The notes under the pieces: generated by a model
Database searches by the model: none
Told to the model about the DNA's origin: nothing
The model's input: the letters and a program-made list of their open reading frames with translations, nothing else
Made by a program: the position numbers and the translations under genes
Shown here: positions 17,090-32,412 of the stretch, piece by piece
Layout of the letters: each line of letters begins with the position of its first letter
Position numbering within the stretch: position 1 is the first letter of the stretch
Assembly (NCBI RefSeq): GCF_018882185.1
Contig: NZ_JACVOY010000001.1
Location: 248,001 to 312,000 of the forward strand
Source: Polynucleobacter sp. AP-Latsch-80-C2
GTDB lineage: Bacteria > Pseudomonadota > Gammaproteobacteria > Burkholderiales > Burkholderiaceae
DNA: 64,000 nucleotides
Direction: 5' to 3'

Positions 17090-17950
17090 ATGTCAAAAGT
17101 AATTCGACTCCTTCATGGTGATTTTGGTAGGGTAGCGCTCCTTGAGATGGATGCGCCCTTGGTAACCCATGCCCACCATCACTGCCACATTTTATGTAAG
17201 GTGGCTGGACCAGATATTGCTTTTCAGGTAAGAGGACAGCTTTGCCCATTGACGGATGACAATGCAGTTCTCATCAACGCCTGGGAAGAGCATTCTTATC
17301 TTCATTTGCCAGTTAATGGTGAAAATCCTATTCTGCTTGCGTTATACCTAGAGCCAAAGTGGTTAGCATCCTTTAGCAAAAAATTCTTAGCAAGCAGTCA
17401 TCCTCGTTTCTTTATCAATAACTTATCTAGCTTAGGCGCCCATCAAAAACAGGTATTAGAAAAGATATCAATGGAGTTATGGTGGGCGGATCAAATTACC
17501 CATGACTACCTTGAGTCGATCTTGCTTGAGCTCGTATTAAGCTTTATGGATGATGCCGATCTTCTAACCCAGGGTGATTTGCGTAACTCTGGTAATTCAT
17601 TGGCATTTATGGATCCTAGGATACGCAAAGCAATCCATATCATGCGTACCTCCCCTCAAGGGTTTAGTGATATTTCCATGGTTGCTCAAAGCGTTGATCT
17701 TTCGCGATCTCACTTTTTTGAGCTCTTTAGGCGCTGCACTGGGCTTTCACCGGTTGTATTTGCGAATGTTCTTAGGATGGAGTTTGCATTCGATGCTCTT
17801 GCTGATAAGGGTGAGAGCCTAATTCATATTGGCGACGAGCTTGGGTTTTCTGCCCAAAGTCATTTCACTAGATTCTTTAAGCAGCATCAAGGGGTTACTC
17901 CAAGCCTCTATCGTCAGCAAGTAGAAAAGGCTCCCAAGCTAGACTCTTAG
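17090..17950 (+). CDS. AraC-family transcriptional regulator, probable activator of the downstream furoate-type operon
   Basis: 286 residues. The N-terminal half has a cupin-like effector-binding pattern (HAHHHCHILCKVAG, then NAWEEHSYLHLP). The C-terminal half has the double HTH of the AraC/XylS family: about 175-275, with FSDISMVAQSVDLSRSHFFELFRRCTGLSP and IHIGDELGFSAQSHFTRFFKQHQGVTPSLYRQ. It is encoded on the same strand just before the molybdenum hydroxylase operon. The 126-base gap between them holds two direct repeats 20 bp apart, the arrangement expected for an AraC-type operator. The effector would be the pathway substrate or its CoA ester, by inference. Confidence 0.9.
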   Translation: MSKVIRLLHGDFGRVALLEMDAPLVTHAHHHCHILCKVAGPDIAFQVRGQLCPLTDDNAVLINAWEEHSYLHLPVNGENPILLALYLEPKWLASFSKKFLASSHPRFFINNLSSLGAHQKQVLEKISMELWWADQITHDYLESILLELVLSFMDDADLLTQGDLRNSGNSLAFMDPRIRKAIHIMRTSPQGFSDISMVAQSVDLSRSHFFELFRRCTGLSPVVFANVLRMEFAFDALADKGESLIHIGDELGFSAQSHFTRFFKQHQGVTPSLYRQQVEKAPKLDS

Positions 17951-17969
17951 GGTTTTCCTGATATACATA

Positions 17970-18007
17970 ATCGGACTCTAAGGTAAGTTATCGGACTTAG
18001 GGGTAAG
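17970..18007 (+). promoter_or_regulatory. Predicted AraC-type operator: two direct repeats, 20-bp period
   Basis: ATCGGACT-N4-GGTAAG occurs at 17970-17987 and again at 17990-18007. The 14 fixed bases are identical in both and only the 4 central bases differ. A period of 20 bp places both on the same face of the helix, as in AraC/XylS-family sites. The proximal repeat ends 69 bases before the TTG start of the operon, so it would abut the -35 region. Confidence 0.7.
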
Positions 18008-18076
18008 CATCCTTTTTGCGCCATCATTAAGCTTCTTTCAGTATTAATTATTCTTAATTTAGCTGAAAAGATTGCA

Positions 18077-21061
18077 TTGAAAACAAGTTCAAACTATTTA
18101 GGCAAGTCATGTGAGCGTGTAGAAGATACCGCTTTACTGACGGGGGGAGGTCGCTACCTAGATGATCTTCCCTTGCCCGTTGGAACCCTATATGCAGCGG
18201 TTGTGCGCTCTCCGATTGCCCACGGAAAAATTATTTCTGTAGATATTGAATCAGCACTGCAGCTTAGGGGTGTTAGAGCAATTTTGACGATTGATGATGT
18301 GCAGGCTTGGTCTAACCCATTGGTGGTTGCTGTTAAAACTCCAATGCGCCAATGGGTATTGGCAAATGACTATGTGCGTTATGTTGGCGAGCCTATAGCG
18401 GTGGTTATCGCTGAATCAAGGGCATCAGCAGAAGATGGCGTAGAGAAGATTGTTTTGAACATTCAACCATTACCCGCTGTGGTCGATGTAGATGTTGCGT
18501 TAGCCCATACATCTATAGTTCTGCATAAGGACATCGGTAGCAATTGTGTTTTGGATCGATCATATCGATACGGTGACCCAGAGAGCGCATTTAAAAATGC
18601 AGCACGCATCGTTGAGGTGGATATTCGTTATCCTCGAAACTCCTGTACACCCATTGAAACGGGCGGGGTAGTGGCGCAATGGCGAGCCGCAGACTCCTCA
18701 TACGAAGTAACGTCAAATTTTATGGGGCCATTTTCATTGCATGTCGTAATGGCTGCTGCGCTGAAAGTCCCCGGAACAAAATTGCGTCACCATGTTGCCC
18801 CAGATTCTGGTGGTAGTTTTGGTGTTAAACAATCGGTATTGCCATACGTCATCATGAGCTGTTTGGCATCGCGTAAAGCAGGTGCTCCAGTGAAATTTAT
18901 AGAGGATCGTTTGGAGCACCTTCAGGCTGCTACATCTGCTACATCCCGTCATACGCATCTTCGCGCTGCAGTGGATGGCAATGGAAAAATTCTGGCCTTA
19001 GATTACGATCAAATTGAAGATTGCGGTGCATATCTGAGAGCGCCTGAGCCTGCAACGCTTTACCGCATGCATGGCTGTGTGACTGGCCCCTACCAAATTC
19101 AGAATTTGAATGTTCGCAACCGTGTCGTCCTTATTAACAAAACGCCTACTGGTCTAGTGAGGGGTTTTGGTGGTCCTCAGGTTTATTACGCACTTGAGCG
19201 CTTGATTCAGAAAATTGCAAAATCTTTAGGTAAAAGTCATCAAGAAATAGCTGCAATAAATTATGTTCAAAAAGATCAGTTTCCCTATCGAGCAGCGGCA
19301 GGGGCATTGCTAGATTCGGGTGATTACCAACAGGCCTTAAAAACGCTTGAGGGTTCACCTGAATTTCAAAAGATACTAGAACGTAGAGACCAGGCGAAAA
19401 AGAAAGGTCGTTACTACGGTATTGGTATTGCATCGATTATTGAGCCTTCAGTATCCAATATGGGTTACATCACCACTGTTCTTACAAAGGAGCAAAGAGC
19501 AAAAGCAGGCCCTAAAAATGGCGCCATCACTTCAGCGACAGTCAGCGTAGATCCTTCTGGAAATATTGCCGCAAATATCGCATCAGCCCCTGCCGGACAG
19601 GGTCATCAGACAGTTATTAGCCAGTTATTGGCGGATGTTTTTGGGGTCTTACCATCTCAGATCCAGGTGAACGTTGATTTTGACACTGCAAAAGATCCAT
19701 GGTCTATTGCTGCCGGAAATTATTCAAGTCGTTTTGCTGGCGCAGTTGCGGGGACGGTATTTTTAGCGGCTGAAAAGTTAAAGGCTCGGATTGCGGATTA
19801 TGCTGCTCATGTACTTAAGGTTAAGCCTGATCAATTAATTTTTGTAAACGGCAATATATCCGTGGTTGGAGATGAGGATGGCGGCATCCCATTTTCTAGA
19901 GTTTGCGGAAACTTTCACTGGTCGCCCGGATTGATTCAAGCGGCCCTAGGGCGTGATACCACTCTAGCGCTGCAAGAAACGCAATTTTGGAGCGCAGATG
20001 TACTAGAGGCGCCCGATGAGGATGATCGAATTAATACATCGGCAGCATATGGTTTTGCTCTTGATGCTTGCGGTATTGAAATAGATCCTGAAACCTGTTC
20101 TGCAAAGATTGATCAGTACATTACAGTGCATGATGCCGGGAGAATATTAAACCCGGCCTTAGCGGATGGTCAGATTTATGGTGCGTATGCACAGGCGGTA
20201 GGCGCAGCCCTTTTTGAAGAGTTTGTCTATAGCAGTGATGGTAATTTTCTCTCCGGTACTTTCGCGGACTATCGCTTGCCTACTGCAAGTGATGTCGGTG
20301 TTCCAAAAATTTACCATCAAGAGTCTCCCAGCCCTTTTACGCCTTTAGGCGCTAAAGGCATAGGTGAGGGTAACAGTATGAGCACCCCAGTTTGTATTGC
20401 TAATGCCATTGCAGACGCTTTAGATCTCGAGAATGTCGTTCTGCCTGCAACACCCAGTCGCATTCATGCGTTACTTGTGGAAAAAGGTGCGCTAAAGCTT
20501 GATAAACCTTCGAGTCAAGTTTCGTCAATGACTACAAATACCGACTATCCATTAAAAGCGCAAGGCGAGGTTAAGTTGGAGGTCCTTCCGGAGGATATCT
20601 TTGCCGTACTGATGGATCCAGAAAGATTAAAGAATGTCATACCAGGTTGTGAGTCCATTCATAAGAAATCTATAGCTAACGGTATTCGGTATGACTGCAT
20701 TGCGGTTGTACGTATTGGTATCGCAAAAGCACGATTTGCTGCTCAGGTTGATTTAACTAACGTTCAAAGTCCGGATAGTTTCGTCTTAGGTGGAGAGGGG
20801 CGGGGGTCCTTAGGAATGGCGCTTGGAATGGGTCAAGTTAGCCTTAAAAAAGAAGGCACCACAACTATTCTGATCTACGACTACCAAGCCCAGGTGTCTG
20901 GCAAGCTTGCTGCAATTGGTAGTAGGTTATTGGAGGGCGCAATCCGCTTAGTGTTGGATCAACTATTTAGAGCACTTGCAAAAGAGGCTGGCGCAAAACA
21001 TGAGGGTCTACTTAAAAGCCTAATTACAAAATTATTTGTTTTATTGGGGGTGGCTAAATGA
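18077..21061 (+). CDS. hmfA: Molybdenum hydroxylase large subunit fused to a CoxG-type domain; probable furoyl-CoA dehydrogenase large subunit
   Basis: Xanthine oxidase-family molybdopterin subunit. 994 residues: residues 1-about 800 are the aldehyde oxidase/xanthine dehydrogenase a/b-hammerhead and Mo-binding regions, with GFGGPQVYYALERL, AGQGHQTVISQLLADVFGV and the KGIGEGNSMSTP loop carrying the catalytic Glu near residue 759. From about 823 to the end is an SRPBCC/CoxG-like domain (GEVKLEVLPEDIFAVLMDPERLKNVIPGC). The TTG start at 18077 is favoured because the family N-terminus begins there; the ribosome site is weak. It overlaps the FAD-subunit gene by 4 bases. The substrate, 2-furoyl-CoA, is inferred from gene order only. 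Confidence 0.85.
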   Translation: MKTSSNYLGKSCERVEDTALLTGGGRYLDDLPLPVGTLYAAVVRSPIAHGKIISVDIESALQLRGVRAILTIDDVQAWSNPLVVAVKTPMRQWVLANDYVRYVGEPIAVVIAESRASAEDGVEKIVLNIQPLPAVVDVDVALAHTSIVLHKDIGSNCVLDRSYRYGDPESAFKNAARIVEVDIRYPRNSCTPIETGGVVAQWRAADSSYEVTSNFMGPFSLHVVMAAALKVPGTKLRHHVAPDSGGSFGVKQSVLPYVIMSCLASRKAGAPVKFIEDRLEHLQAATSATSRHTHLRAAVDGNGKILALDYDQIEDCGAYLRAPEPATLYRMHGCVTGPYQIQNLNVRNRVVLINKTPTGLVRGFGGPQVYYALERLIQKIAKSLGKSHQEIAAINYVQKDQFPYRAAAGALLDSGDYQQALKTLEGSPEFQKILERRDQAKKKGRYYGIGIASIIEPSVSNMGYITTVLTKEQRAKAGPKNGAITSATVSVDPSGNIAANIASAPAGQGHQTVISQLLADVFGVLPSQIQVNVDFDTAKDPWSIAAGNYSSRFAGAVAGTVFLAAEKLKARIADYAAHVLKVKPDQLIFVNGNISVVGDEDGGIPFSRVCGNFHWSPGLIQAALGRDTTLALQETQFWSADVLEAPDEDDRINTSAAYGFALDACGIEIDPETCSAKIDQYITVHDAGRILNPALADGQIYGAYAQAVGAALFEEFVYSSDGNFLSGTFADYRLPTASDVGVPKIYHQESPSPFTPLGAKGIGEGNSMSTPVCIANAIADALDLENVVLPATPSRIHALLVEKGALKLDKPSSQVSSMTTNTDYPLKAQGEVKLEVLPEDIFAVLMDPERLKNVIPGCESIHKKSIANGIRYDCIAVVRIGIAKARFAAQVDLTNVQSPDSFVLGGEGRGSLGMALGMGQVSLKKEGTTTILIYDYQAQVSGKLAAIGSRLLEGAIRLVLDQLFRALAKEAGAKHEGLLKSLITKLFVLLGVAK

Positions 21062-21897
21062 AATCTGCACCATTCGTGATGCACCAAGCCCACTCCCAAT
21101 CTAATATTTTGGATTTACTGGATCAATATGGTGAGGATGCCCGCGTTATTGCTGGAGGTCAAACTCTGGTCCCTGTGTTAGCAATGAGGGTAGCTAGCCC
21201 TGATCATTTAATTGATATAAATAAGGTCATAGATCTAAAAAATTTCGGCGTTACTGATGGCGCACTGCAAGTTGGGGCCGGCGTTAGGCAGTCTGAATTG
21301 GAGCATTGGAGTGAGCTTCGTAAGACTCAGCCACTTTTAAACATGATGTTTCCGTGGATAGCTCATACCCCTATTCGAAATCGGGGTACGGTATGTGGAT
21401 CGATTGCGCACGCAGACCCCAGTGCTGAGTTGGTTCTTGGCTTGGCTGTACTAGAGGGCTCAGTCACTCTAGCAAGCAAGAAAAAGAAGCGAGTAGTGCA
21501 GGCCAAAGATTTTTTCTTGGGAGCGCTTCAAACCAGTCGTCAGTCAAATGAATTCATCGAAGCTGTCCAGTTTCCTATTCGTGGCCCTCATGCGGGATTT
21601 GGATTTGCAGAATATGGATATCGACACGGCGATTTTGCGGTGGTGGCCGTTGCAGTTATTAAAGAAGATGATGTCTGGACCATTGGGTTTGGCGGCATTG
21701 ATGATGTTGTAAGGATCTACAAATGCACTGCCATCTCGCTTGATCAGGTTAAGCAGTTTATCGACGAACTAGCTGCAGAGACTGAGGTAAGAGAGGATCC
21801 CACCGCAACTTCAGGGTTGCGTAGACATTTGATGCGCACATTAGGAGCGCGCGCCTGCCAACAAGCTATGGAATTTAAAAGTGGTGAAATAAGATGA
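21058..21897 (+). CDS. hmfB: Molybdenum hydroxylase FAD-binding subunit; probable furoyl-CoA dehydrogenase medium subunit
   Basis: 279 residues of the CoxM/FAD-binding PCMH family, which passes electrons from the iron-sulfur subunit to the acceptor. FAD-contact motifs AGGQTLVPVLAMR (about 36-48) and RNRGTVCGSIAHADPSAEL (about 109-127) are clear. The ATG overlaps the large-subunit stop and its own stop overlaps the 2Fe-2S gene, both as ATGA, so the three subunits are translationally coupled. Subunit order large-FAD-FeS is that of hmfABC in furoate degraders. Confidence 0.86.
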   Translation: MKSAPFVMHQAHSQSNILDLLDQYGEDARVIAGGQTLVPVLAMRVASPDHLIDINKVIDLKNFGVTDGALQVGAGVRQSELEHWSELRKTQPLLNMMFPWIAHTPIRNRGTVCGSIAHADPSAELVLGLAVLEGSVTLASKKKKRVVQAKDFFLGALQTSRQSNEFIEAVQFPIRGPHAGFGFAEYGYRHGDFAVVAVAVIKEDDVWTIGFGGIDDVVRIYKCTAISLDQVKQFIDELAAETEVREDPTATSGLRRHLMRTLGARACQQAMEFKSGEIR

Positions 21898-22388
21898 AGA
21901 TCCAGCAGGTAAAACTAACTTTAAATGGGGTTGAGCGTGAAGGGACTTGCGAATCACGTACGACATTACTGGATTTTATTCGCCATGATTTAGGATCAAC
22001 GGGTACCCATGCAGGTTGCGAGCATGGTGTATGCGGAGCATGCACAGTTGAACTTGATGGGCAAATCGTTCGCTCTTGCCTCATGTTTGCATGCCAGGCT
22101 GATGGCGCAAAGGTTACTACGGTAGAAGGCATTGCAAAGTCAGGAGAAATGTCTGACTTACAAAATGCATTTAAAAAACACCATGCATTGCAATGTGGAT
22201 TTTGTACCTCAGGATTTTTACTTTCAGCAGAAGATCTACTTAAAAAGAACCCTTATCCAAGCGAGTTAGAGGTGCGCGAGGGTTTGTCAGGAAATTTATG
22301 TCGTTGTACTGGTTATGTTGGAATTGTCGAGGCAGTTTTAGAGGTTGCCGCAGCCAGAGCACGCCAAAATGGAGGAGAGCATGCTTGA
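21894..22388 (+). CDS. hmfC: Molybdenum hydroxylase 2Fe-2S subunit; probable furoyl-CoA dehydrogenase small subunit
   Basis: 164 residues. The N-terminal plant-type ferredoxin domain has the first cluster ligands in GCEHGVCGACTVELDG plus a downstream Cys (RSCL). The C-terminal four-helix domain binds the second cluster through QCGFCTSGF and GNLCRCTGY. This is the standard CoxS/XdhC layout. The stop lies 8 bases inside the next gene, whose GGAGGAG ribosome site is within this coding sequence. Confidence 0.88.
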   Translation: MKIQQVKLTLNGVEREGTCESRTTLLDFIRHDLGSTGTHAGCEHGVCGACTVELDGQIVRSCLMFACQADGAKVTTVEGIAKSGEMSDLQNAFKKHHALQCGFCTSGFLLSAEDLLKKNPYPSELEVREGLSGNLCRCTGYVGIVEAVLEVAAARARQNGGEHA

Positions 22389-23916
22389 TCTAGGTCGAAC
22401 TTTTTTGCAGGCTGTTGAGCGTGAGCCTGATAAGTTGGCGATTGTTGATGGGGCTAGGCGTCACACCTACGCGGAGTGGGCGCTTCATATTGGCGCCATT
22501 CAGCAATTTTTTAACGATCAGGGTCTCAAGCGTGGCGATCGGATCTTGACTGTTTTGCAAAATCGCTATGAGGCGGCAACAATTCATTGGGCGTGTCAGA
22601 TGGCAGGCATAGCTATCGTTCCTTTGAATTGGCGCTCTAAGCCAGATGAAATTGATTACTGCGCACAAAATGCTGATGTGAAATTGGCCTTTGTTGAGGA
22701 GATATCGCTCAATAACTACCTGGAATCGGAAACGAGTAAATCTATTTCGGTAATTCTATGTATGGGGAAGGTATCTTTAGATGGATATCGCTATTTTGAT
22801 CAGTTAATTCAGAAGGGGGCTGAGCCAGAGGCACGCGGTCATGTTGAAGATATATCAGTCATGCTTTTTACCTCTGGCACCACAGGTAAGCCGAAAGGCG
22901 TTCCGAGAAAGCAGCGCGCAGAGCGTGCGGCAGGCATTGCGCACGTTGCGCAAAACCAGTATGCAATGGGTGAGGTGACATTGGGTGTGATGCCGCTTTA
23001 TCACACGATGGGTGTAAGAACGCTGTTATCGCTATGTATTGTGAATGGAACTTATGTGGCAGTACCGCGTTGGGATGTGAATAAGGCGATAGAAGCAATT
23101 GAGAGTGAGGCGGTTACACATCTTTATTTGGTTCCAACGCTTTATCACGACATGATTCAGTCAAACAATTTCAACTCAAATCGGGTAAAGACCGTAAAGA
23201 AGCTTGGATTTGCAGGTGCCCCCATGCATGATGCTTTATTGCTTAAATTAAGCGAGGCCTTTTCTCCTGAATTGTTTGTGAATCATTATGGTTCAAGTGA
23301 GATTTACACATACACCATCAATCAAAATGCCGTATTAAAGCCAGGCTGTGCTGGAAAAGCGGGCATCAATGCACGCATCAGAGTGGTTAAGTTGGATCAA
23401 GGATCTGCGCAAACACAGCCAAGTCAAATAGCGGCTTGTCACGAAGAGGGGCAGATCATTTGCGATCTATCGGGGGATGAAGCATTCGAAGGGTATTGGA
23501 AGCGTCCCGATGCTGATCAAAAATCTATTCGTGATGGCTGGTATTTCACGGGTGATACGGGCTACTTTGATGAATCTGGTGACTTATTTGTTACAGGTCG
23601 GGTCGATGACATGATTATTTCTGGCGGAGAAAATATTTCCCCCGTTGAAATTGAGTCTATTTTATCTCTGCATCCATCTGTAAGTGAGGTGGCTGTCGCT
23701 GGGTTGAAGGATGACCGTCTTGGACAAAAAGTAGTTGCCTTTATTAGGGCATCGGGGGATGTTGATTCAGACGCCTTAGATGAATATTGCCGCAGATCAG
23801 ATTTGATCAACTTTAAACGTCCTCGAGAGTATGTATTTGTTAAAGAGATTCCCAAGTCGCCTGTGGGAAAGGTATTGCGACGCATGTTAGTCGCCGGCGA
23901 ATATGAAAGAGCTTAA
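22381..23916 (+). CDS. hmfD: AMP-forming acyl-CoA synthetase; probable 2-furoyl-CoA synthetase
   Basis: ANL-superfamily ligase, 511 residues from ATG 22381. This start is chosen over an upstream in-frame codon because GGAGGAG (22370-22376) sits directly before it. Motifs: P-loop FTSGTTGKPKGVPR, the YGSSE motif, GWYFTGDTG, the hinge GRVDDMIISGGENISPVEIE and the C-terminal catalytic Lys in KSPVGKVLRR. It would activate the ring acid to its CoA thioester before ring hydroxylation by the preceding Mo enzyme. Benzoate-like substrates cannot be excluded from the sequence alone. Confidence 0.85.
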   Translation: MLDLGRTFLQAVEREPDKLAIVDGARRHTYAEWALHIGAIQQFFNDQGLKRGDRILTVLQNRYEAATIHWACQMAGIAIVPLNWRSKPDEIDYCAQNADVKLAFVEEISLNNYLESETSKSISVILCMGKVSLDGYRYFDQLIQKGAEPEARGHVEDISVMLFTSGTTGKPKGVPRKQRAERAAGIAHVAQNQYAMGEVTLGVMPLYHTMGVRTLLSLCIVNGTYVAVPRWDVNKAIEAIESEAVTHLYLVPTLYHDMIQSNNFNSNRVKTVKKLGFAGAPMHDALLLKLSEAFSPELFVNHYGSSEIYTYTINQNAVLKPGCAGKAGINARIRVVKLDQGSAQTQPSQIAACHEEGQIICDLSGDEAFEGYWKRPDADQKSIRDGWYFTGDTGYFDESGDLFVTGRVDDMIISGGENISPVEIESILSLHPSVSEVAVAGLKDDRLGQKVVAFIRASGDVDSDALDEYCRRSDLINFKRPREYVFVKEIPKSPVGKVLRRMLVAGEYERA

Positions 23917-23938
23917 TTTTTTTTACTAGAAAGACCTT

Positions 23939-24748
23939 ATGACTACTATTTTGAAACATCCTTTTAGCAATATCCTAGACAACCTTGACGGGTTCTATGT
24001 GGAAATTGATGAGGCTCATCAAAGGGCTGACATTGTTTTAAAGAGGCCTCCATTTAACGTCATACAAATGCCTCAGCGCGATCAATTACGAGCTGCATTT
24101 GAGGCTTTAGATGCTGATGACCGTGTCCGCATCATTGTATTGAGGGCAGAAGGCGAACATTTCTCTAGCGGTGGCGATATTAAAGGCTTTTTAGAGGCAA
24201 CACCCGAGCATGTATCCAAGCTTGCTTGGAATATTGCCGCACCTACGCGCTGTACTAAACCTGTGATTGCAGTAAATCATGGCTACTGCTTCGGAGTGGG
24301 CTTTGAAATTTCACTAGCATGTGATTTCCGTATAGCGGCTGAATCAACTTTGTATGCTTTGCCAGAGCAAAAGTTAGGACAAATTCCTGGCTCAGGCGGA
24401 TCGGCACGTTTACAAAAAATGGTAGGAATCACCCGAACTAAAGATATTGTGATGCGCTCCAGACGTATTAAGGGTCAGCAAGCCTATGAGTGGGGTGTTG
24501 CAACCGAATGCGTTCCAGACGCAGAGCTTGCGAGCGCCACATCTAAATTGGTTGATGAATTGCGCGCATTCTCACCTATGGCCCAGAGAACGGCCAAAAA
24601 GATGCTTAATGAAACGGAGGACTGCTTGTTAACTACAGCTATTGAAGTTGAAGGCCATTGCTACAGCCGCTTGCGTAACTCAGAAGATTTTAAAGAAGGG
24701 GTTGAAGCATTTCATGGAAAGCGCCAACCAAATTTTGTTGGTCGTTAA
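23939..24748 (+). CDS. hmfE: Enoyl-CoA hydratase/isomerase-family protein; probable 2-oxoglutaryl-CoA hydrolase step
   Basis: Crotonase-fold protein, 269 residues. Oxyanion-hole segments are AEGEHFSSGGDIKGF (about 64-78) and the second helix region FGVGFEISLACDFRIAAEST. PEQKLGQIPGSGGSARLQKMVG follows, as in crotonases. In the furoate pathway the fifth hmf gene encodes a protein of this family thought to release 2-oxoglutarate from its CoA ester. The position after the synthetase gene, 22 bases downstream, fits that role. Exact chemistry is inferred from context. Confidence 0.82.
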   Translation: MTTILKHPFSNILDNLDGFYVEIDEAHQRADIVLKRPPFNVIQMPQRDQLRAAFEALDADDRVRIIVLRAEGEHFSSGGDIKGFLEATPEHVSKLAWNIAAPTRCTKPVIAVNHGYCFGVGFEISLACDFRIAAESTLYALPEQKLGQIPGSGGSARLQKMVGITRTKDIVMRSRRIKGQQAYEWGVATECVPDAELASATSKLVDELRAFSPMAQRTAKKMLNETEDCLLTTAIEVEGHCYSRLRNSEDFKEGVEAFHGKRQPNFVGR

Positions 24749-24770
24749 TTTATTAAAGGAGACGTACATA

Positions 24771-25952
24771 ATGAAAAAGCAATTTCAAACAAAGAAAATC
24801 GCTCTAGCGGTTGCCTTAAGCCTTGGCGCATCATTGGTTTACGCACAAACCGGCCCAATCAAAATCGGTGTTGTGACGCCTTTATCGGGTACGTACACAC
24901 CAATTGGTGAGCAGGTAAAAATGGGTTTAGATCTAGCGGCAAAAGAAATTAATGCAACCGGCGGTATTAATGGTCGAAAAATTGATTTGATTTACGAGGA
25001 CGAAGAAGCAAACCCGGCAGTTGCAACTCAAAAAGCAGAGAAGTTATTTCAGGTAGAAAAAGTAGAGTTTTTAACTGGAACAGTTAACTCAGGATCTACT
25101 TTAGCTGTAGGGCAGTTGGCCGAGCGAAATAACAAGCTGATAGCAACGACAGTTTCATTTGCTGATTCAATTACAGCAGATAAATGCTCGCCAAACGTTT
25201 TTCGTGTGAATGCTCGCGCTGGAATGCAATCTGCAGCATTGGCAGCTTGGGTGGATAAGGAGATTCCGAAGGCTAATATTTTCTTTATAGGCCCTGACTA
25301 TGAGATGGGACGCAGTACCGTATCAGCTTTTAAGAAAGCATCTACTGAAAAAGGTGCCAAGGATGTTGGTGAAGTCTTTGCACCACTCGACAATAAAGAC
25401 TACTCACCATATTTTGGTCAGGTAAGAGCTGCTAAGCCTAATGTTATTTATACCTCTGTGGCCGGTAACGACACGGTACGCTTATTTACTCAAATGGATG
25501 AGTATGGCGTGAATAAAGGAGTAACCATTATTGGTGCTTCTGGGACAGTCACATCGCAAAATATGGGTGCGATTGGAAAATCTGCAAATGGATTCGTTAC
25601 TGGTGTTGGCTACTCTCCTAAGTTAGATAACCCAGCTAATAAAAAGTTCGTAGCTGATTTCCAAAAAGCCTATAACAAGCTTCCTGATCTTTATGGTGCT
25701 GACTCCTATGGCCTTTTATATTTTTATAAGGCCGCGGTTGAAAAAGCGAAATCTACAGAAACCGACAAAGTTCGAGCTGCCATGAATGATCTTAGTTGGC
25801 AAACTCCACAGGGCACGAAGAAAATGCGTGCCGGTGATCACCAGGCGATGCAAGATATGTTTGCGGTTCGCGTAGAGAATGGCGAGTTCAATATTGTTGG
25901 AAGAGTACCTTCAGACCAGGCAATTGGGCCTGATACATGCGCTCGTTTTTAA
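24771..25952 (+). CDS. Branched-chain-type ABC transporter substrate-binding protein
   Basis: Periplasmic binding protein of the LivK/HAAT family, 393 residues from ATG 24771, with the strong ribosome site AAAGGAGA before it. An N-terminal signal peptide (KKIALAVALSLGASLVYAQ) ends near residue 25. GPIKIGVVTPLSGTYTPIGEQVKMGLDLAAKEINATGGI is the classic start of the type I periplasmic fold. Members next to aromatic-acid genes often bind aromatic acids rather than amino acids. Here furoate or furandicarboxylate is the likely ligand, by context. Confidence 0.9.
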   Translation: MKKQFQTKKIALAVALSLGASLVYAQTGPIKIGVVTPLSGTYTPIGEQVKMGLDLAAKEINATGGINGRKIDLIYEDEEANPAVATQKAEKLFQVEKVEFLTGTVNSGSTLAVGQLAERNNKLIATTVSFADSITADKCSPNVFRVNARAGMQSAALAAWVDKEIPKANIFFIGPDYEMGRSTVSAFKKASTEKGAKDVGEVFAPLDNKDYSPYFGQVRAAKPNVIYTSVAGNDTVRLFTQMDEYGVNKGVTIIGASGTVTSQNMGAIGKSANGFVTGVGYSPKLDNPANKKFVADFQKAYNKLPDLYGADSYGLLYFYKAAVEKAKSTETDKVRAAMNDLSWQTPQGTKKMRAGDHQAMQDMFAVRVENGEFNIVGRVPSDQAIGPDTCARF

Positions 25953-25966
25953 TTAATTAGTCAATT

Positions 25967-26001
25967 ACTCCACATCCTTCCTGTGCGGATGTAGAGTTTT
26001 T
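25967..26001 (+). terminator. Hairpin between binding-protein and permease genes
   Basis: An 11-bp stem ACTCCACATCC / GGATGTAGAGT (25967-25977, 25987-25997) with one C-A mismatch and a 9-base loop, followed by TTTT. It probably acts as a partial terminator or 3'-end stabiliser, giving more binding protein than permease. Confidence 0.6.
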
Positions 26002-26035
26002 GGCTTGAGAATTTCATTAAGGGATTGGGTTTTCA

Positions 26036-26920
26036 ATGCTAGAGAGCTTGCAATATATTTATGCGCCACAGATAGTCAATGGACTTTCAATCGGCGTTGC
26101 TGTGGTCCTCATGGCCTTGGGTTTAACCATTATTTTTGGCTTGCTAGACGTCATTAATATGTCGCATGGCGAATTTTACGCAGCTGGCGCATTTATCAGC
26201 GTGAGTCTGATGGCGATGGGTGTGTCATTTTGGTTATGCCTATTATTAGTTCCTTTGTTATTGATTCCAATTGGTTTTGCAATGGAAAGGCTGTTGATTC
26301 AAAAAGTATTTCACTATAAAGACCGACATATTCTGACTCTGCTACTGACATTTGGTGTTGCGATGGTTTTGGAAGATGGTTATAAGATTGTTTGGGGTGC
26401 TAACCCAATCAAGCCTAGCGCTCCAATCTCTGGCGCCAGTGAATTATTGGGAGTAATGTTTCCAAATTACCGACTATTTCTAATGGTGTTCGGTGCTTTA
26501 ATTATTTTCTCTGTATGGGCTCTAATTTATAAAACTCAGCTTGGGGCGATTGTGAGGGCTTCAGCATATGACAAAGATATGAGCTCTTCGCTAGGAATAC
26601 CGGTGATGCGAGTTTATGCGCTGACTTTTGCATTTGGCGTTGCCTTGGCTGGCCTAGCGGGGGTGTTACTTGCTCCAATCTATTCAGTTTTCCCCACTAT
26701 GGGAAGAGATTTTATTTTAATGGCCTTTAGCGTCGTCATTGTCGGCGGTCTTGGAAGTATTAAGGGTGCAGTTATTGCAGGAATTTTATTAACGCAATTG
26801 CAATCCATCTCTTCGTTATTCATTTCGCCGGTCTGGTCCGATCCCCTAGTCTTTACGGTAATGGTGCTGGTATTGATGTTTAAACCATCTGGTTTATATG
26901 GGGGCATGAAAAATGCGTAA
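26036..26920 (+). CDS. Branched-chain-type ABC transporter permease (LivH-like)
   Basis: 294-residue integral membrane protein with about eight hydrophobic segments, e.g. GLSIGVAVVLMALGLTIIFGLLDVINMSHGEFYAAGAF, the typical LivH N-terminus. The cytoplasmic loop ASAYDKDMSSSLGIPVMRVYALTFAFGVALAGLAGVLLAP contains the EAA-like coupling helix that contacts the ATPases. It overlaps the LivM-like gene by 8 bases. With the neighbouring genes it makes a complete importer. Confidence 0.93.
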   Translation: MLESLQYIYAPQIVNGLSIGVAVVLMALGLTIIFGLLDVINMSHGEFYAAGAFISVSLMAMGVSFWLCLLLVPLLLIPIGFAMERLLIQKVFHYKDRHILTLLLTFGVAMVLEDGYKIVWGANPIKPSAPISGASELLGVMFPNYRLFLMVFGALIIFSVWALIYKTQLGAIVRASAYDKDMSSSLGIPVMRVYALTFAFGVALAGLAGVLLAPIYSVFPTMGRDFILMAFSVVIVGGLGSIKGAVIAGILLTQLQSISSLFISPVWSDPLVFTVMVLVLMFKPSGLYGGMKNA

Positions 26921-27896
26921 TCCCCAGGTCAAGGCTATTCGTCTGATTGAAATACTTTTGCTGGTCTCCGCAGTTGGCTTATTTGTCATTGGCAGTATTT
27001 TGGGTGACACCTTTTTCTTGAGATTGGCTACAGAGTCGTTAATCTTTGGTGGATTAGCGATGTCTGTAGATCTTTTACTGGGAATAGTAGGGTTGCTATC
27101 TCTCGGGCAAGCATTGTATTTTGGTTTTGGCGCCTATCTATCCGCTTTAGTTTTAAAAGAAATTTCCCCATCATTTTTCTTGGCCATAGGCGTTGTCACC
27201 CTATCATCTATCGTATTGGGGTGGTTAGCGAGTTTTGTGGCGCTGAGATCTAAGGGTGTCTACTTTGCATTAATAACCTTTGGATTAGCGCAAGTAGCTG
27301 CTAAGGTTGTCTACAACGCTCGAAGTCTCGGGGCATCAGATGGGATGATGGGCGTACCCATTTTGCAAATCTGGACCCCATTTGGTGTTGTTGATGCTGG
27401 CCATCCAGGTGCATTTTTTGTAATTACTATGCTTACTATTGGCGCCTTGTATGCAGTCTTAAAATATTTTTTGACTACTCCTATGGGTTCTATTTGGCAT
27501 GCAATTAGTTCTAATGAGGATCGTTTGGCTTACCTCGGTTATAAATCCAAAGGGCCAAAACAGGTGGCATTTATTTTGGCATCAGTAGTTGCAGCGGTTT
27601 CTGGCGCCCTCTATCCGATGTTAAGAGGTTTTGTTTCTCCCGAGCTGATGTTCTTTAGTGTCTCTGGAAATGCTGTTGTAACCGTTGTTTTGGGTGGGGT
27701 AGGAACTTTAATCGGACCCATATTGGGCAGCGTTCTTCTAACCTCATTTAAGTCCATCATTGGTACCTGGACAGTACATCATCATATTGTTATCGGACTT
27801 ATCTTTGTGGTGGTAGTAGTTTCCGCTCCCAAGGGCATTGCTGGTCTGCTAACAAAATATTTTGGAAAAATTCATTCTCACAAAGGAGGGGAGTGA
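26913..27896 (+). CDS. Branched-chain-type ABC transporter permease (LivM-like)
   Basis: 327-residue permease. The hydrophobic N-terminus is followed by GLAMSVDLLLGIVGLLSLGQALYFGFGAYLSALV, the LivM signature. The coupling segment HAISSNEDRLAYLGYKSKGPKQVAFILASVVAAVSGALY comes before the last helices. The start overlaps the LivH-like gene and the stop overlaps the ATPase gene. Confidence 0.93.
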   Translation: MRNPQVKAIRLIEILLLVSAVGLFVIGSILGDTFFLRLATESLIFGGLAMSVDLLLGIVGLLSLGQALYFGFGAYLSALVLKEISPSFFLAIGVVTLSSIVLGWLASFVALRSKGVYFALITFGLAQVAAKVVYNARSLGASDGMMGVPILQIWTPFGVVDAGHPGAFFVITMLTIGALYAVLKYFLTTPMGSIWHAISSNEDRLAYLGYKSKGPKQVAFILASVVAAVSGALYPMLRGFVSPELMFFSVSGNAVVTVVLGGVGTLIGPILGSVLLTSFKSIIGTWTVHHHIVIGLIFVVVVVSAPKGIAGLLTKYFGKIHSHKGGE

Positions 27897-28651
27897 TGAA
27901 GAATGAAGAAATGATTCTTAAGGCAAAAAGTCTTAGTAAGCGCTTTGGCGGTCTTACCGCTGTAGACGATGTGAGCTTTGAAGTAACGCGTTTAGGTGTT
28001 ACTTCGATTATTGGTCCAAACGGCGCAGGCAAGAGCACGCTCTTTAATTTGTTGAGCGGTACTTTTATGGCTGATTCTGGATTGGTGGAGCTTGACGATC
28101 AAAATATTACACGCATGAGTCCTGAGGGGCGCTTGTCATGCGGGATGGCTCGATCATTTCAGATTACCAACCTCTTTTTTGATCTCTCTGTGATTGATAA
28201 CTTAAGAATTGCAAGTCAAGCATTAGAGTCGCGTTCTAATTTGTTCTTACCTTTAAGCAAAAGCACTATCGCAATGGATCGAGCTAACGAATTATTAGAA
28301 GAATTTGGTTTGCTGGAATGCCGTGATCAGCTTGCAGGGGCCTTATCCCATGGTCAGCAAAGACGTCTTGAGATTGCTGTGACATTGGCAACTCGGCCAA
28401 AACTTTTGTTATTAGATGAGCCAACCCAAGGCATGTCTCAGGGTGATACTCAGGATACGGCTGAGCTCATTAAGCGCCTGGGATTAAAAATTACAGTTTT
28501 ATTGATTGAGCATGACGTGGATCTTGTGATGGATTTATCTAAAACGGTGATCGTCATGGCGCAAGGCAAGAAATTAGCGGAAGGCATTCCTAGTGATGTA
28601 CGCGCTAATCCGCTTGTTCAAACGGCATACTTTGGTGAGGAGTTGGCATGA
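27896..28651 (+). CDS. ABC transporter ATP-binding protein (LivG-like)
   Basis: About 251 residues. Walker A GPNGAGKST, Q-loop in SFQITNLFFDLSVIDNL, signature LSHGQQRRLEIA, Walker B LLLLDEPTQGMS and the H-loop IEHDVDLVMDLS. The signature motif LSHGQ is a common variant in this subfamily. ATG 27896 is preferred to GTG 27893 because AGGAGG (27884-27889) is then 6 bases upstream. It is coupled to the LivF-like gene by an ATGA overlap. Confidence 0.93.
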   Translation: MKNEEMILKAKSLSKRFGGLTAVDDVSFEVTRLGVTSIIGPNGAGKSTLFNLLSGTFMADSGLVELDDQNITRMSPEGRLSCGMARSFQITNLFFDLSVIDNLRIASQALESRSNLFLPLSKSTIAMDRANELLEEFGLLECRDQLAGALSHGQQRRLEIAVTLATRPKLLLLDEPTQGMSQGDTQDTAELIKRLGLKITVLLIEHDVDLVMDLSKTVIVMAQGKKLAEGIPSDVRANPLVQTAYFGEELA

Positions 28652-29358
28652 TTTTGGAGATGCATGATGTACATGTCAACTTGGGTTTGTCCCATGTTTT
28701 ACAGGGCGTCAATTTATCTATTAAGCCTGGCGAGACTGTAGGCGTATTTGGAAGGAACGGGGTTGGGAAGACTACTATCGTCAAAACCATTGCCGGCTGG
28801 CATAAACCTTCCCAAGGAAAGATATTATTTCAAGATCAAGCTATTGAAGCCTTACCCCCAAATGAAATTACCCGCTTGGGTATGGGTTTGGTGCCTGAGG
28901 ATCGAAGAATATTTCCTGGCTTAAGTGTTGAGGGAAATCTGAAACTAGGGTTAATGCAAGTTCAGGCAAGCGAGCGTAAAGTCGCTGAGCAACGTATACA
29001 AATGGTCTTTGAGCGATTTCCGCGATTAAGCGAACGCCGAAATCAATCAGGTACTACTTTGTCTGGTGGCGAACAGCAAATGCTAGCAATGGCTCGTGTA
29101 TTAATAGGCAATCCAAAATTACTATTAATTGATGAGCCGACAGAAGGTCTTGCCCCAATGGTAGTGGCAGATATCTTCCGTCTAATGGAGGAGCTTAAGG
29201 CTCAGGGAATTTCAATTCTATTAATTGAGCAAAATATTCATAAAGCCATTCATTTGTGCGATAGACATTATGTGGTTGAGCGGGGTAGGGTTGTGCTTGA
29301 AGGTAACTCTCAAGACCTTGAAGAGCGTAAAGAATTAATTAGGCGCGTTAGCGTTTAA
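28648..29358 (+). CDS. ABC transporter ATP-binding protein (LivF-like)
   Basis: 236 residues. Walker A FGRNGVGKTT, LivF-type PEDRRIFPGLSVEGNLKLG, signature TLSGGEQQMLAMARVL, Walker B LLLIDEPTEGLAP and switch His replaced in the segment LLIEQNIHKAI, as usual for LivF. It completes a five-component importer (binding protein, two permeases, two ATPases). The next gene follows after 19 bases. Confidence 0.93.
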   Translation: MILEMHDVHVNLGLSHVLQGVNLSIKPGETVGVFGRNGVGKTTIVKTIAGWHKPSQGKILFQDQAIEALPPNEITRLGMGLVPEDRRIFPGLSVEGNLKLGLMQVQASERKVAEQRIQMVFERFPRLSERRNQSGTTLSGGEQQMLAMARVLIGNPKLLLIDEPTEGLAPMVVADIFRLMEELKAQGISILLIEQNIHKAIHLCDRHYVVERGRVVLEGNSQDLEERKELIRRVSV

Positions 29359-29377
29359 AACAATACGGGAGATATTT

Positions 29378-30364
29378 ATGAGAACTAAAACAGTAGCTTA
29401 TTTTCTTTCATTAGCAGTTGGCATGCTTGGGCTTACTTCAGGCCAATTATTTGCGCAAGGCTCTGCGGCATATCCAGAGAAACCGATCACCATCATTGTT
29501 CCTTATCCTCCTGGCGGCTTTAACGATACGCTTGGTAGGATTGTTGGAAAAAAATTGAGCGATGCATGGGGCGTAAATGTAATCATAGAAAATAAGCCGG
29601 GTGCAGGCACTACTATTGGGACTAACTTTGTCGCCAGATCTGCGCCAGACGGTTACACAATATTGGTTGCTCAATTCCCATTTGCTGCCAATCCATTTAT
29701 TTACAAGTCGCTTCCATATGACAGCAGTAAGGCATTTGCACCAGTTGTACTGGCAGGTAGAGCCCCTATGGTTTTGGTTGTGAATGAAAACTCCAAGATT
29801 AAATCGCTTGCTGACTTATTGGCTGCCGCCAAGAAAAGTCCTAGCAAGATCGACTATGGTTCCTCAGGGTCAGGATCTTCGGAGCATTTAGCAATGGCCC
29901 TATTTGAGAATATGGCTAATGTTAGCCTTAATCAAATTCCTTATAAGGGAAGCACTCCATTGTTAACGGATTTGGCTGGTGGTCAAGTAGAGGTTGCATT
30001 CGATGTATTTCCAATGGTTCGTCCATTTATTCAATCAGGAAAAATTAGGCCTATTGCTATTGCCACTGATGTACGGTCTCCGCTTTTACCTCAGGTTCCA
30101 ACTGTTGCTGAGGCTGGATTAAAGGGGTACGAGGTATCTTCATGGCATGGGTTTATGGTTCCCTCAGGTACTCCACCTGCAATTATTGATAAGTTAAATA
30201 AACAGATTAATAGTATCTTGACTCAAGAGGATATTAAAAAGACGTTTAATGAGCAGGGGGTAGTACCTGATGGTGGAACAGCAAACCAATTTGATGCGTT
30301 TATTCGAAAACAAATGGAAATCTGGAAAAAAGTTGTTGTCCAGGCGGGAATTATTCCAGAGTGA
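29378..30364 (+). CDS. Bug/TctC-family periplasmic solute-binding protein
   Basis: 328 residues with a signal peptide ending near LFAQG (about residue 26). Bug/TctC features are YPEKPITIIVPYPPGGFNDTLGRIVGKKL, ENKPGAGTTIGTNFVARSAPDGYT and a Venus-flytrap C-terminal half (QVPTVAEAGLKGYEVSSWHGFMVPSGTP). This family is greatly expanded in Burkholderiales and usually binds carboxylates. No TctA/TctB membrane genes are adjacent, so it is an orphan binding protein. It may bind furandicarboxylate or another pathway acid for a transporter elsewhere, or act in sensing. Confidence 0.92.
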   Translation: MRTKTVAYFLSLAVGMLGLTSGQLFAQGSAAYPEKPITIIVPYPPGGFNDTLGRIVGKKLSDAWGVNVIIENKPGAGTTIGTNFVARSAPDGYTILVAQFPFAANPFIYKSLPYDSSKAFAPVVLAGRAPMVLVVNENSKIKSLADLLAAAKKSPSKIDYGSSGSGSSEHLAMALFENMANVSLNQIPYKGSTPLLTDLAGGQVEVAFDVFPMVRPFIQSGKIRPIAIATDVRSPLLPQVPTVAEAGLKGYEVSSWHGFMVPSGTPPAIIDKLNKQINSILTQEDIKKTFNEQGVVPDGGTANQFDAFIRKQMEIWKKVVVQAGIIPE

Positions 30365-30396
30365 TATTTATTCTCCATATCTTATAGGCTGCCTCG

Positions 30397-31821
30397 ATGA
30401 AAAAATTTACCGAACTTCGAACATGGCTAGCCCATCTTGCGAATACCAATCGCCTGCTTGCTACAAAAAAGAATGTCCTACTTAAGCATGAGTTAGCGGC
30501 AATAGCTAAGAAGCTAGATGGAAAAAGTAGTGTCTTTTTTCCCAATCCAAATGGGCACGTAATGCCGGTAGTTTCTGGTTTTATGTCTTCACGCTCCTGG
30601 ATTGCCGAAGCAATGGGTGTTAGCGAGGCGGATTTACTGAATGCCTATCGTGTGGCAGCCGATAATCCGCTACCTTGTCACTTGGTTAAAGAAGCGCCTT
30701 GCCAGGAAGTTGTACATCAGGAGTTTGATGTGAGGACTCTATTGCCCGTGCCAACCCATAGCGAACATGATAGTGGGCCGTACATTACTGCTGGCTTGGT
30801 CATAGCGAAAAATTCTAAGACAGGTATTCAGAATGTATCAATTAATCGAATTCAAGTGAATTCAAAAGATCGTATGGCCGTGCTGATTTTGCCAAGACAT
30901 CTTCATGCCTTTCAACAGGCTGCAGAAGAAATGAATCAGCCATTGCCTGTTGCCGTGGTGATAGGAGTTGACCCATTGACGCTTTTGGCTTCTCAAGCAA
31001 TTGCACCGATTGATTCGGATGAGCTTGAAATTGCTGGCGCTCTGCACGGAGCACCTCTGGATGTAGTGAAATGCATAAGTAATGATGTATTGGTGCCGGC
31101 AAATGCAGAAATAGTCATTGAGGGTCATATTCCACCTAGGGTACGTGAGCTTGAGGGCCCCTTTGGTGAATATCCCAAATACTATAGCTCTCAAGAGAAG
31201 CGCCAAGTTATTGTGGTCGACATGGTTACACACAGAGAAGATCCAATCTTTCACACCATTGTTCCGGCAGAGTTAGAGCATCTATTGCTTGGTTCAATTC
31301 CAAGGGAGGCGACAATCTTGTCGCATCTGCGTAGAAGTTTTCCTGGTGTATTGGATGTTCATTTATCGCTCGGTGGAGTTGGGCGCTATCATCTTTATGT
31401 TCAGATCAAAAAGACACATGAAGGTTTACCTAAAAATGTAATTTCGGGCGCCTTCAGCTCTCACTATGATGTAAAGCACGTTGTGGTCGTAGATGAGGAT
31501 GTCGACGTTCATGATCCAGCTCAGGTCGAATGGGCTATTGCAACTAGATTTCAGGCTAAACGTGGCTTGGTAGTTATTCATGACACGCAAGGTTCGGTTT
31601 TGGATCCGTCGACAACCGTTGGGTTGCCTGTTGATGCGGATGGAGTCATTCCGGCTCAATTTCAGGGTATGAGTTCAAAAATGGGTCTAGATGCAACTAA
31701 GCCGCTTACTTATGAGGGGCACGTATTTACCAAGGTGAAGGTTCCCGGTGAGGATGCGGTAAATCTAGATGCTGTGCTTGATCCTCAGTTTCCTATTGCT
31801 TCATATCTGAAATCAAATTAA
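30397..31821 (+). CDS. hmfF: UbiD-family prenylated-FMN decarboxylase; candidate 2,5-furandicarboxylate decarboxylase
   Basis: 474 residues of the UbiD/Fdc1 family, which reversibly (de)carboxylate aromatic or unsaturated acids using prenylated FMN. Visible are the ASN/Arg region NVSINRIQV (about 146-154) and the acid pair of the catalytic triad in ELEGPFGEYPKYY (about residues 252-257). The LGGVGRYHLYVQIKK segment is in the substrate and metal region. It is followed 15 bases later by a ubiX gene supplying the cofactor. Next to furoate-type genes it matches HmfF, which converts furandicarboxylate to 2-furoate. The substrate is an inference; pyrrole- or hydroxybenzoate-type acids are alternatives. 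Confidence 0.8.
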   Translation: MKKFTELRTWLAHLANTNRLLATKKNVLLKHELAAIAKKLDGKSSVFFPNPNGHVMPVVSGFMSSRSWIAEAMGVSEADLLNAYRVAADNPLPCHLVKEAPCQEVVHQEFDVRTLLPVPTHSEHDSGPYITAGLVIAKNSKTGIQNVSINRIQVNSKDRMAVLILPRHLHAFQQAAEEMNQPLPVAVVIGVDPLTLLASQAIAPIDSDELEIAGALHGAPLDVVKCISNDVLVPANAEIVIEGHIPPRVRELEGPFGEYPKYYSSQEKRQVIVVDMVTHREDPIFHTIVPAELEHLLLGSIPREATILSHLRRSFPGVLDVHLSLGGVGRYHLYVQIKKTHEGLPKNVISGAFSSHYDVKHVVVVDEDVDVHDPAQVEWAIATRFQAKRGLVVIHDTQGSVLDPSTTVGLPVDADGVIPAQFQGMSSKMGLDATKPLTYEGHVFTKVKVPGEDAVNLDAVLDPQFPIASYLKSN

Positions 31822-31836
31822 TTACTAGGAATCATT

Positions 31837-32412
31837 TTGAACAAACGCTTAATTGTCGCCATTACAGGAGCATCGGGAACGATCTATGGGATACGCATTC
31901 TTGAGGCCTTGAGGGATATTGGCGTTGAATCTCATTTGGTAATGAGTGACTCAGCAAAGTTGACTATGGCAGCTGAAACAAGTTACAAGCCAGCCCAAAT
32001 TGAGGCTATGGCTGACGTTGTCCATTCGGCAAAAAATGTTGGCGCTTCCATCTCTTCGGGATCATTTAAAAGTCTTGGCATGGTCATTGCTCCGTGTTCA
32101 ATTAGAACGTTATCAGAGATTGCCTGTGGGGTGACTAGTAGCTTGGTTTCTAGAGCTGCTGATGTGGTATTGAAGGAGCGCCGCCGCTTGGTATTGTTAG
32201 TAAGAGAGACGCCCTTACATTTAGGCCATTTACGTTCGATGTCTCAGGTTACTGAGTGTGGTGCGATTGTGATGCCTCCAGTACCCGCTTTCTATGCCAA
32301 GCCAAACTCTCTAGATGATATGGTAAGTCACACAGTTGGAAGATGCCTAGACCTTTTTGATTTAGATAATACGCTTGTAACTCGTTGGAATGGAATGGAT
32401 GGCGGCAAATGA
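31837..32412 (+). CDS. ubiX: UbiX-family flavin prenyltransferase
   Basis: 191 residues. Makes prenylated FMN from FMN and dimethylallyl phosphate, the cofactor of UbiD enzymes. It has the flavoprotein start RLIVAITGASGTIYGIRILEAL, SGSFKSLGMVIAPCS, LKERRRLVLLVRETPLHLGHLR and MPPVPAFYAKP. TTG 31837 is the start, with AGGA 6 bases upstream. In this operon it would serve the adjacent UbiD (an HmfG role), but it may also be the only ubiX of the genome and serve ubiquinone synthesis. Confidence 0.9.
   Translation: MNKRLIVAITGASGTIYGIRILEALRDIGVESHLVMSDSAKLTMAAETSYKPAQIEAMADVVHSAKNVGASISSGSFKSLGMVIAPCSIRTLSEIACGVTSSLVSRAADVVLKERRRLVLLVRETPLHLGHLRSMSQVTECGAIVMPPVPAFYAKPNSLDDMVSHTVGRCLDLFDLDNTLVTRWNGMDGGK

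Follow-up and report, generated by a model that had tools for sequence, protein, structure and literature searches.

A probable direct-repeat operator for an AraC-family regulator upstream of hmf-like furoate genes in Polynucleobacter

Direct-repeat operators have been described for several regulators. XylS is reported to bind two 15-bp direct repeats with a box A (TGCA) and a box B (GGTA), and to carry two helix-turn-helix (HTH) motifs (PMC5481539). BenR sites have the form TGCA-N6-GGNTA (PMC6449761), and the CphR sites, at -35 to -49 and -55 to -69, recur with a 20-bp period (PMC6205950). The furoic-acid pathway encoded by hmfABCDE was described for Cupriavidus basilensis (PMC6678421). In Pseudomonas pseudoalcaligenes CECT 5344 (BN5_2307) and P. 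putida Fu1, as in the locus treated here, an AraC-family regulator lies by the hmf genes. One source names the AraC gene of the P. umsongensis cluster as regulator of the lower pathway and also lists a LysR-family regulator for the upper pathway (PMC12064950). In the AraC protein of the P. pseudoalcaligenes hmf cluster, a substitution in the HTH region, given as L261R in the abstract and L262R in the text, accompanied growth on furfural; when this AraC gene was inactivated in the adapted strain, the growth was lost (PMC6678421). The passages on the furoate regulator in PMC6678421, PMC12064950, and PMC13320085 describe no operator, and a study of betaproteobacterial aromatic-compound regulons contains no word beginning with furo or hmf (PMC6449761).

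The window analyzed here is a stretch of 64,000 nucleotides from Polynucleobacter sp. AP-Latsch-80-C2 (NZ_JACVOY010000001.1, positions 248,001 to 312,000). A tandem repeat with a 20-bp period had been predicted in it, between an AraC-family gene and the operon that this gene should control, and the letters, coordinates, and placement of that prediction are all exact. Positions 17970-17987 (ATCGGACTCTAAGGTAAG, the distal copy) and 17990-18007 (ATCGGACTTAGGGGTAAG, the proximal copy) are direct copies of ATCGGACT-N4-GGTAAG, with 14 of 14 named bases identical and 4 of 4 spacer bases differing. The pair lies inside a 126-bp gap that runs from the stop of the araC-family gene (17950) to the TTG start of an hmfA-like gene (18077). 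The features of the locus are as follows.

17090-17950, plus strand: AraC/XylS-family regulator (Pfam HTH_18, 5.2e-19; modeled with an N-terminal cupin-like barrel and a C-terminal double HTH)
17970-17987, plus strand: putative distal operator copy, box A GAC at 17974-17976, box B GGTAAG at 17982-17987
17990-18007, plus strand: putative promoter-proximal operator copy, box B GGTAAG at 18002-18007, about -38 to -33 of the presumed start
18028-18033, plus strand: -10-like hexamer TAAGCT, 20 nt after the proximal copy, with a presumed start near 18040
18077-21061, plus strand: hmfA-like molybdopterin subunit with a C-terminal CoxG domain, assigned by domains; TTG start
21058-21897, plus strand: hmfB-like FAD subunit, assigned by domains
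21894-22388, plus strand: hmfC-like 2Fe-2S subunit, assigned by domains
22345-23916, plus strand: hmfD-like AMP-binding acyl-CoA synthetase; the ORF starts at TTG 22345, and the true start may be further in
23939-24748, plus strand: hmfE-like enoyl-CoA hydratase family protein, assigned by domains

It is highly probable from sequence comparison that 17970-18007 is a two-site region for the adjoining AraC protein (17090-17950) and serves as the direct-repeat activator site of the furoate (hmf) operon, with a box B presumably at -35. Each 18-bp copy would accommodate a single double-HTH domain, with one of its HTH motifs contacting box A (around TCGGAC) and its second motif contacting box B (GGTAAG). 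The two protomers would sit head to tail on the same face of the DNA, 20 bp or two helical turns apart. We infer that the proximal box B replaces the -35 element, that the bound activator brings RNA polymerase to TAAGCT at 18028-18033, and that hmfABCDE would be switched on when furoic acid or its CoA ester is present.

The genes at 18077-24748 look like hmfABCDE in that order, with hmfABC as dehydrogenase subunits followed by hmfD and hmfE, the names being taken from gene order and domains. The hmfE-like protein is 70-78% identical in the 7 other loci that match it over most of its length. On the same strand after hmfE, 24768-32412 holds branched-chain-type ABC transporter genes, a TctC-type binding protein, a UbiD decarboxylase, and a UbiX-like flavoprotein, which looks like furoate uptake and a furandicarboxylate branch. 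Donoso et al. 2021 is cited in PMC12064950 as a survey of hmf genes.

In the regulator, both HTH_18 and HTH_AraC score above their curated cut-offs, and Pfam calls no domain in its N-terminus. An AlphaFold model built with 28 sequences (mean pLDDT 80.4) has an N-terminal beta barrel, with strands at residues 2-87, and a helical double-HTH C-terminal domain. Compared with the PDB, the model matches ToxT and Rns over the full length at the fold level only. Single-domain fold matches include AraC, RhaR (at the N-terminal domain), and others, and the DNA-binding domain also matches the AraC and MarA domains by sequence. The protein therefore has the two HTH motifs of the AraC/XylS family and, as predicted by the model alone, an N-terminal ligand or dimerization domain. 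Its nearest relatives are in Polynucleobacter. R261 is invariant in 28 aligned sequences, and our guess, made from the numbers alone, is that the Pseudomonas L261R/L262R position corresponds to it. The cupin-like domain contains an HAHHHCH motif at residues 27-33 (17168-17188), a possible metal or ligand site; all 28 aligned sequences share H27, H29, C32, and H33.

As judged from sequence, the pair has two features of a direct-repeat operator, namely two head-to-tail copies about two helical turns apart and two sub-boxes, with a box B like GGNTA or GGTA. Like the XylS-dependent Pm promoter of the Pseudomonas TOL plasmid, it has two direct repeats with a box A and a box B, and the XylS box B GGTA is contained in its GGTAAG; unlike Pm, its box A is centered on GAC rather than TGCA, and the protein and inducer are others. 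The cphA2A1 promoter of Rhodococcus sp. YH-5B, controlled by CphR, shares the architecture, the 20-bp period, a similar box B, and presumably the placement, but it has another box A and phenol-type inducers, and its sites were tested by mutation, whereas the operator here is a putative one read from sequence. The TGCA box A of XylS, BenR, and CphR is not present in either operator copy, which has the GAC-centered box instead, and the operator is thus not an XylS/BenR-type site in the narrow sense. Box B reads GGTAAG in the genus, and in many distant loci the first copy has GGATAG or GGTCAG instead. The putative operator would be ordinary in kind, as an AraC/XylS-type direct repeat, and new as a member, and comparison supports it well.

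Within the genus, a Polynucleobacter-type alignment of 16 distinct sequences from 17 loci shows which bases are held. Of the 18 positions that GAC and GGTAAG make up in the two copies, 16 are invariant, compared with 1 of 8 in the spacers and 0 of 2 in the linker, and the named bases are invariant at 11 of 14 positions in the distal copy and 9 of 14 in the proximal copy. The fixed part of each copy in these sequences is therefore GAC-N5-GGTAAG, narrower than the 14 bases originally named. The following segment, 18008-18023, is invariant at 1 of 16 positions but does not vary in length among 15 loci compared. The segment that separates the end of araC from the distal copy, 17951-17969, is invariant at 13 of 19 positions in the 16 rows and bears no likeness to a third unit.

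Across 186 genomes of the genus, hmfA occurs in 22. The pattern TCVGACTN4GGTAAG, which was derived from sites of Polynucleobacter itself, occurs in 21, and 16 of these also have hmfA. A hand count puts 28 of its 34 places directly upstream of hmfA. The remaining six comprise one in G151 and one each in five genomes that lack hmfA, the latter being about the level of the reversed pattern (16 places in all in the 186 genomes). Six genomes have hmfA without the exact pattern. In G204 the contig is cut; G073, at the level of Polynucleobacter hallstattensis, has single-base variants (compare L043); and G173, G174, G193, and G206 form a sister group with variant boxes (compare L053, L055, L056, and L058), the last five genomes having been matched to these loci by equal identities.

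Beyond the genus, 46 distant loci with araC homologues were scanned with a matrix built from nine distinct Polynucleobacter pairs, spacings of 19-22 being allowed. In 37 of the 46, the best pair has a spacing of 20 and is equaled by at most 2 of 200 dinucleotide shuffles. The nine loci that fall short of this are L054, where the best spacing is 22, and L057, L064, L084, L085, L092, L096, L097, and L098. L054, L057, L064, L085, and L092 adjoin hmf genes and yet fall short, L096 and L097 are partial, remote matches, and L064 and L085 show three-unit arrays under a second matrix, which was itself obtained by iteration over these loci at a fixed period of 20. When the spacing was left free between 18 and 40, the best value was 20 or 40 in 33 of 43 representatives, as against about 9% of shuffles. 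The control consisted of the 28 best-scoring hmfA loci of the same family outside the genus, 26 of which have no araC in about 1.5 kb upstream. A pair of the same quality was found in 1 of these 26 (2 of 26 if another spacing is admitted), whereas both control loci with araC (L142 and L147) have strong pairs. The contrast between 37 of 46 loci with araC and 1 of 26 without it argues that the site is tied to the regulator rather than to hmfA itself.

Among 369 genomes of the class, the own genome included, the regulator was found in one further genome, G748 (E up to 1e-30). Its regulator is 39-41% identical and its araC lies beyond hmfE, yet TTCAGACTCTCGGGCAAACG TCCGGACTCCGGTGCAG still stand in front of hmfA, which argues that the site goes with the promoter and not with the end of the araC gene. 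Of 14 plasmid records carrying the regulator, 10 were examined, by a scan at period 20 only and without shuffles. Pairs precede hmfA on plasmids of Caballeronia, Azospirillum, Dinoroseobacter, Bosea, Rhizobium, Ensifer, and Shinella, and more weakly of Paracoccus; on alphaproteobacterial plasmids the second copy is often degenerate. In Variovorax sp. RA8 (L161:7780-8060), a 33% identical paralogue of the regulator stands beside a hydrolase operon that is preceded by a pair with a 20-bp period and then GACACT 21 nt on. Judging from this paralogue, the operator type may be wider than furoate genes. A period-20 scan found no pair behind the araC of the Burkholderia anthina paralogue. Many Betaproteobacteria, alphaproteobacterial plasmids, and a few others retain the half sites in front of their orthologous operons, as expected if the original prediction of an AraC-type operator is sound.

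The less ordinary feature of the operator, as compared across these loci, is a clade-wise difference between two and three copies. By the second matrix, 33 of 61 loci have three units, 22 have two, five have one, and one has four; the third unit in L103 and the fourth in L068 are weak and were read as absent. Three units are the rule in Comamonadaceae-type loci, and two are found in Polynucleobacter, in L091, L093, L094, L142, and L147, and on plasmids. On a tree of 60 regulators with hand-set labels, L053, L056, and L058 being labeled against the second-matrix counts by reading their sequences, the copy-number label changes 4 times, at least 3 of these changes being forced by starred branches, compared with a shuffled mean of 18.4. 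In a reduced tree that leaves the weak rows L053-L058 unlabeled and excludes the far plasmid rows L161-L163, a single starred branch splits 27 three-copy from 22 two-copy rows (shuffled mean about 16). Near-copies among the rows help the label to cluster on the tree.

These counts allow a tentative proposal, which we hold to be somewhat less probable than its opposite, that the operator is modular and variable in copy number. It would consist of two 20-bp units in Polynucleobacter and several lineages and of three in one well-supported clade of Comamonadaceae and kin, at a constant distance from the -10, with a third protomer binding head to tail and tuning induction. If this is true, the third head-to-tail protomer would be an arrangement beyond the usual AraC dimer; a literature search for three direct repeats with AraC found no paper. 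Arrays of two and three copies would form a natural series on how AraC-type activators use their sites.

It is improbable that the pair is bound by another regulator traveling with the operon, such as a LysR protein or a global regulator, instead of the adjoining AraC protein. Further hmf regulators do exist, including the LysR-family regulator listed for the upper pathway (PMC12064950). However, the motif goes with araC and not with hmfA, it is built of two boxes in direct repeat, as AraC/XylS sites are, and its number of copies agrees with the tree of the regulator. If the adjoining AraC protein is the one that binds, GAC-N5-GGTAA in a 20-bp tandem would be a consensus for finding operons under the presumed furoate regulator in Proteobacteria. 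The promoter would likewise be a defined candidate for detecting furoic acid, which arises as an intermediate when lignocellulose by-products and furandicarboxylic acid are degraded.

The position of the pair relative to the promoter bears on how the AraC protein would act. A hexamer of the form [TGC]A..[CT]T follows the proximal copy in 41 of 42 representatives (13 loci having been excluded beforehand), at 20 nt in 20 and at 21 nt in 21. The form was composed after the sequences had been inspected, and about 5% would be expected to match at one or other position. The hexamer is TAAGCT in the window and GACACT, TATGCT, or TACGCT elsewhere. If TAAGCT is the -10, the proximal box B would lie at -38 to -33 and take the place of the -35. 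A plain sigma-70 scan found no promoter in the 126-bp gap and missed TAAGCT. The window promoter has a poor -10 and lacks a recognizable -35, as an activated promoter might, but a wrongly placed promoter would look the same. Together with the conservation at orthologues and the linkage to araC, the fixed distance to the -10-like hexamer supports the predicted AraC-type operator.

That the AraC protein instead represses read-through from araC into hmfA, or works as a two-way switch rather than a pure activator, is very unlikely. Since the two genes lie on the same strand and no plus-strand terminator was found by scanning the 126-bp gap, read-through is possible. The presumed place of box B at -35 and the loss of growth on furfural in the Pseudomonas araC mutant (PMC6678421) argue instead for activation.

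Judged from the window alone, the near-repeat is within chance expectation. At spacings of 18-40, 2 pairs in the window agree at 14 or more of 18 bases, compared with a mean of 3.9 and a maximum of 9 in 60 first-order Markov sequences. The exact 8-N4-6 form occurs once in the window and averages 0.0 in the controls, although it was picked post hoc. The contrast between conserved bases and differing spacers, which had been offered as a sign of selection, is accordingly weak when taken from a single sequence. It is the conservation of the pair in other genomes that removes the doubt. Although pairs this alike are no commoner in the window than in the controls, a functionless chance tandem duplication in a short gap has a negligible probability, given that the boxes are conserved against free spacers and linker and that the same period recurs in distant genomes.

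In the own genome, 17970-18007 is the single good place of the pair. Allowing up to 3 mismatches in the 16 fixed bases, it alone is free of mismatches, and the other pairs, all at 3 mismatches, number 9, whereas the reversed pattern gives 25. A search for the single site that tolerated 2 mismatches gave 12 places, 2 of them perfect (reversed pattern, 9), and no further copy has fewer than 2 mismatches. Additional regulon members, which the original prediction had suggested might be found by scanning the whole genome, did not emerge from either the pair or the single-site pattern, the counts being near or below the level of the reversed patterns.

The hmfA leader contains, near the presumed start, inverted arms CTTTCAG (18035-18041) and CTGAAAAG (18063-18070) around a variable loop, and these arms are largely conserved in the genus. 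A leader hairpin was considered and rejected. The folding energy of 41 leaders has a mean z of -0.71, compared with -0.76 for equally long operator stretches, z falls below -1.5 in 10 leaders and 11 control stretches, and RNAalifold on the alignment gave no such stem. The apparent TTG start of hmfA (18077) is invariant in the 16 distinct rows; it lacks a good Shine-Dalgarno sequence in the window, and in the outgroup L053 the TTG is preceded by GGAGG.
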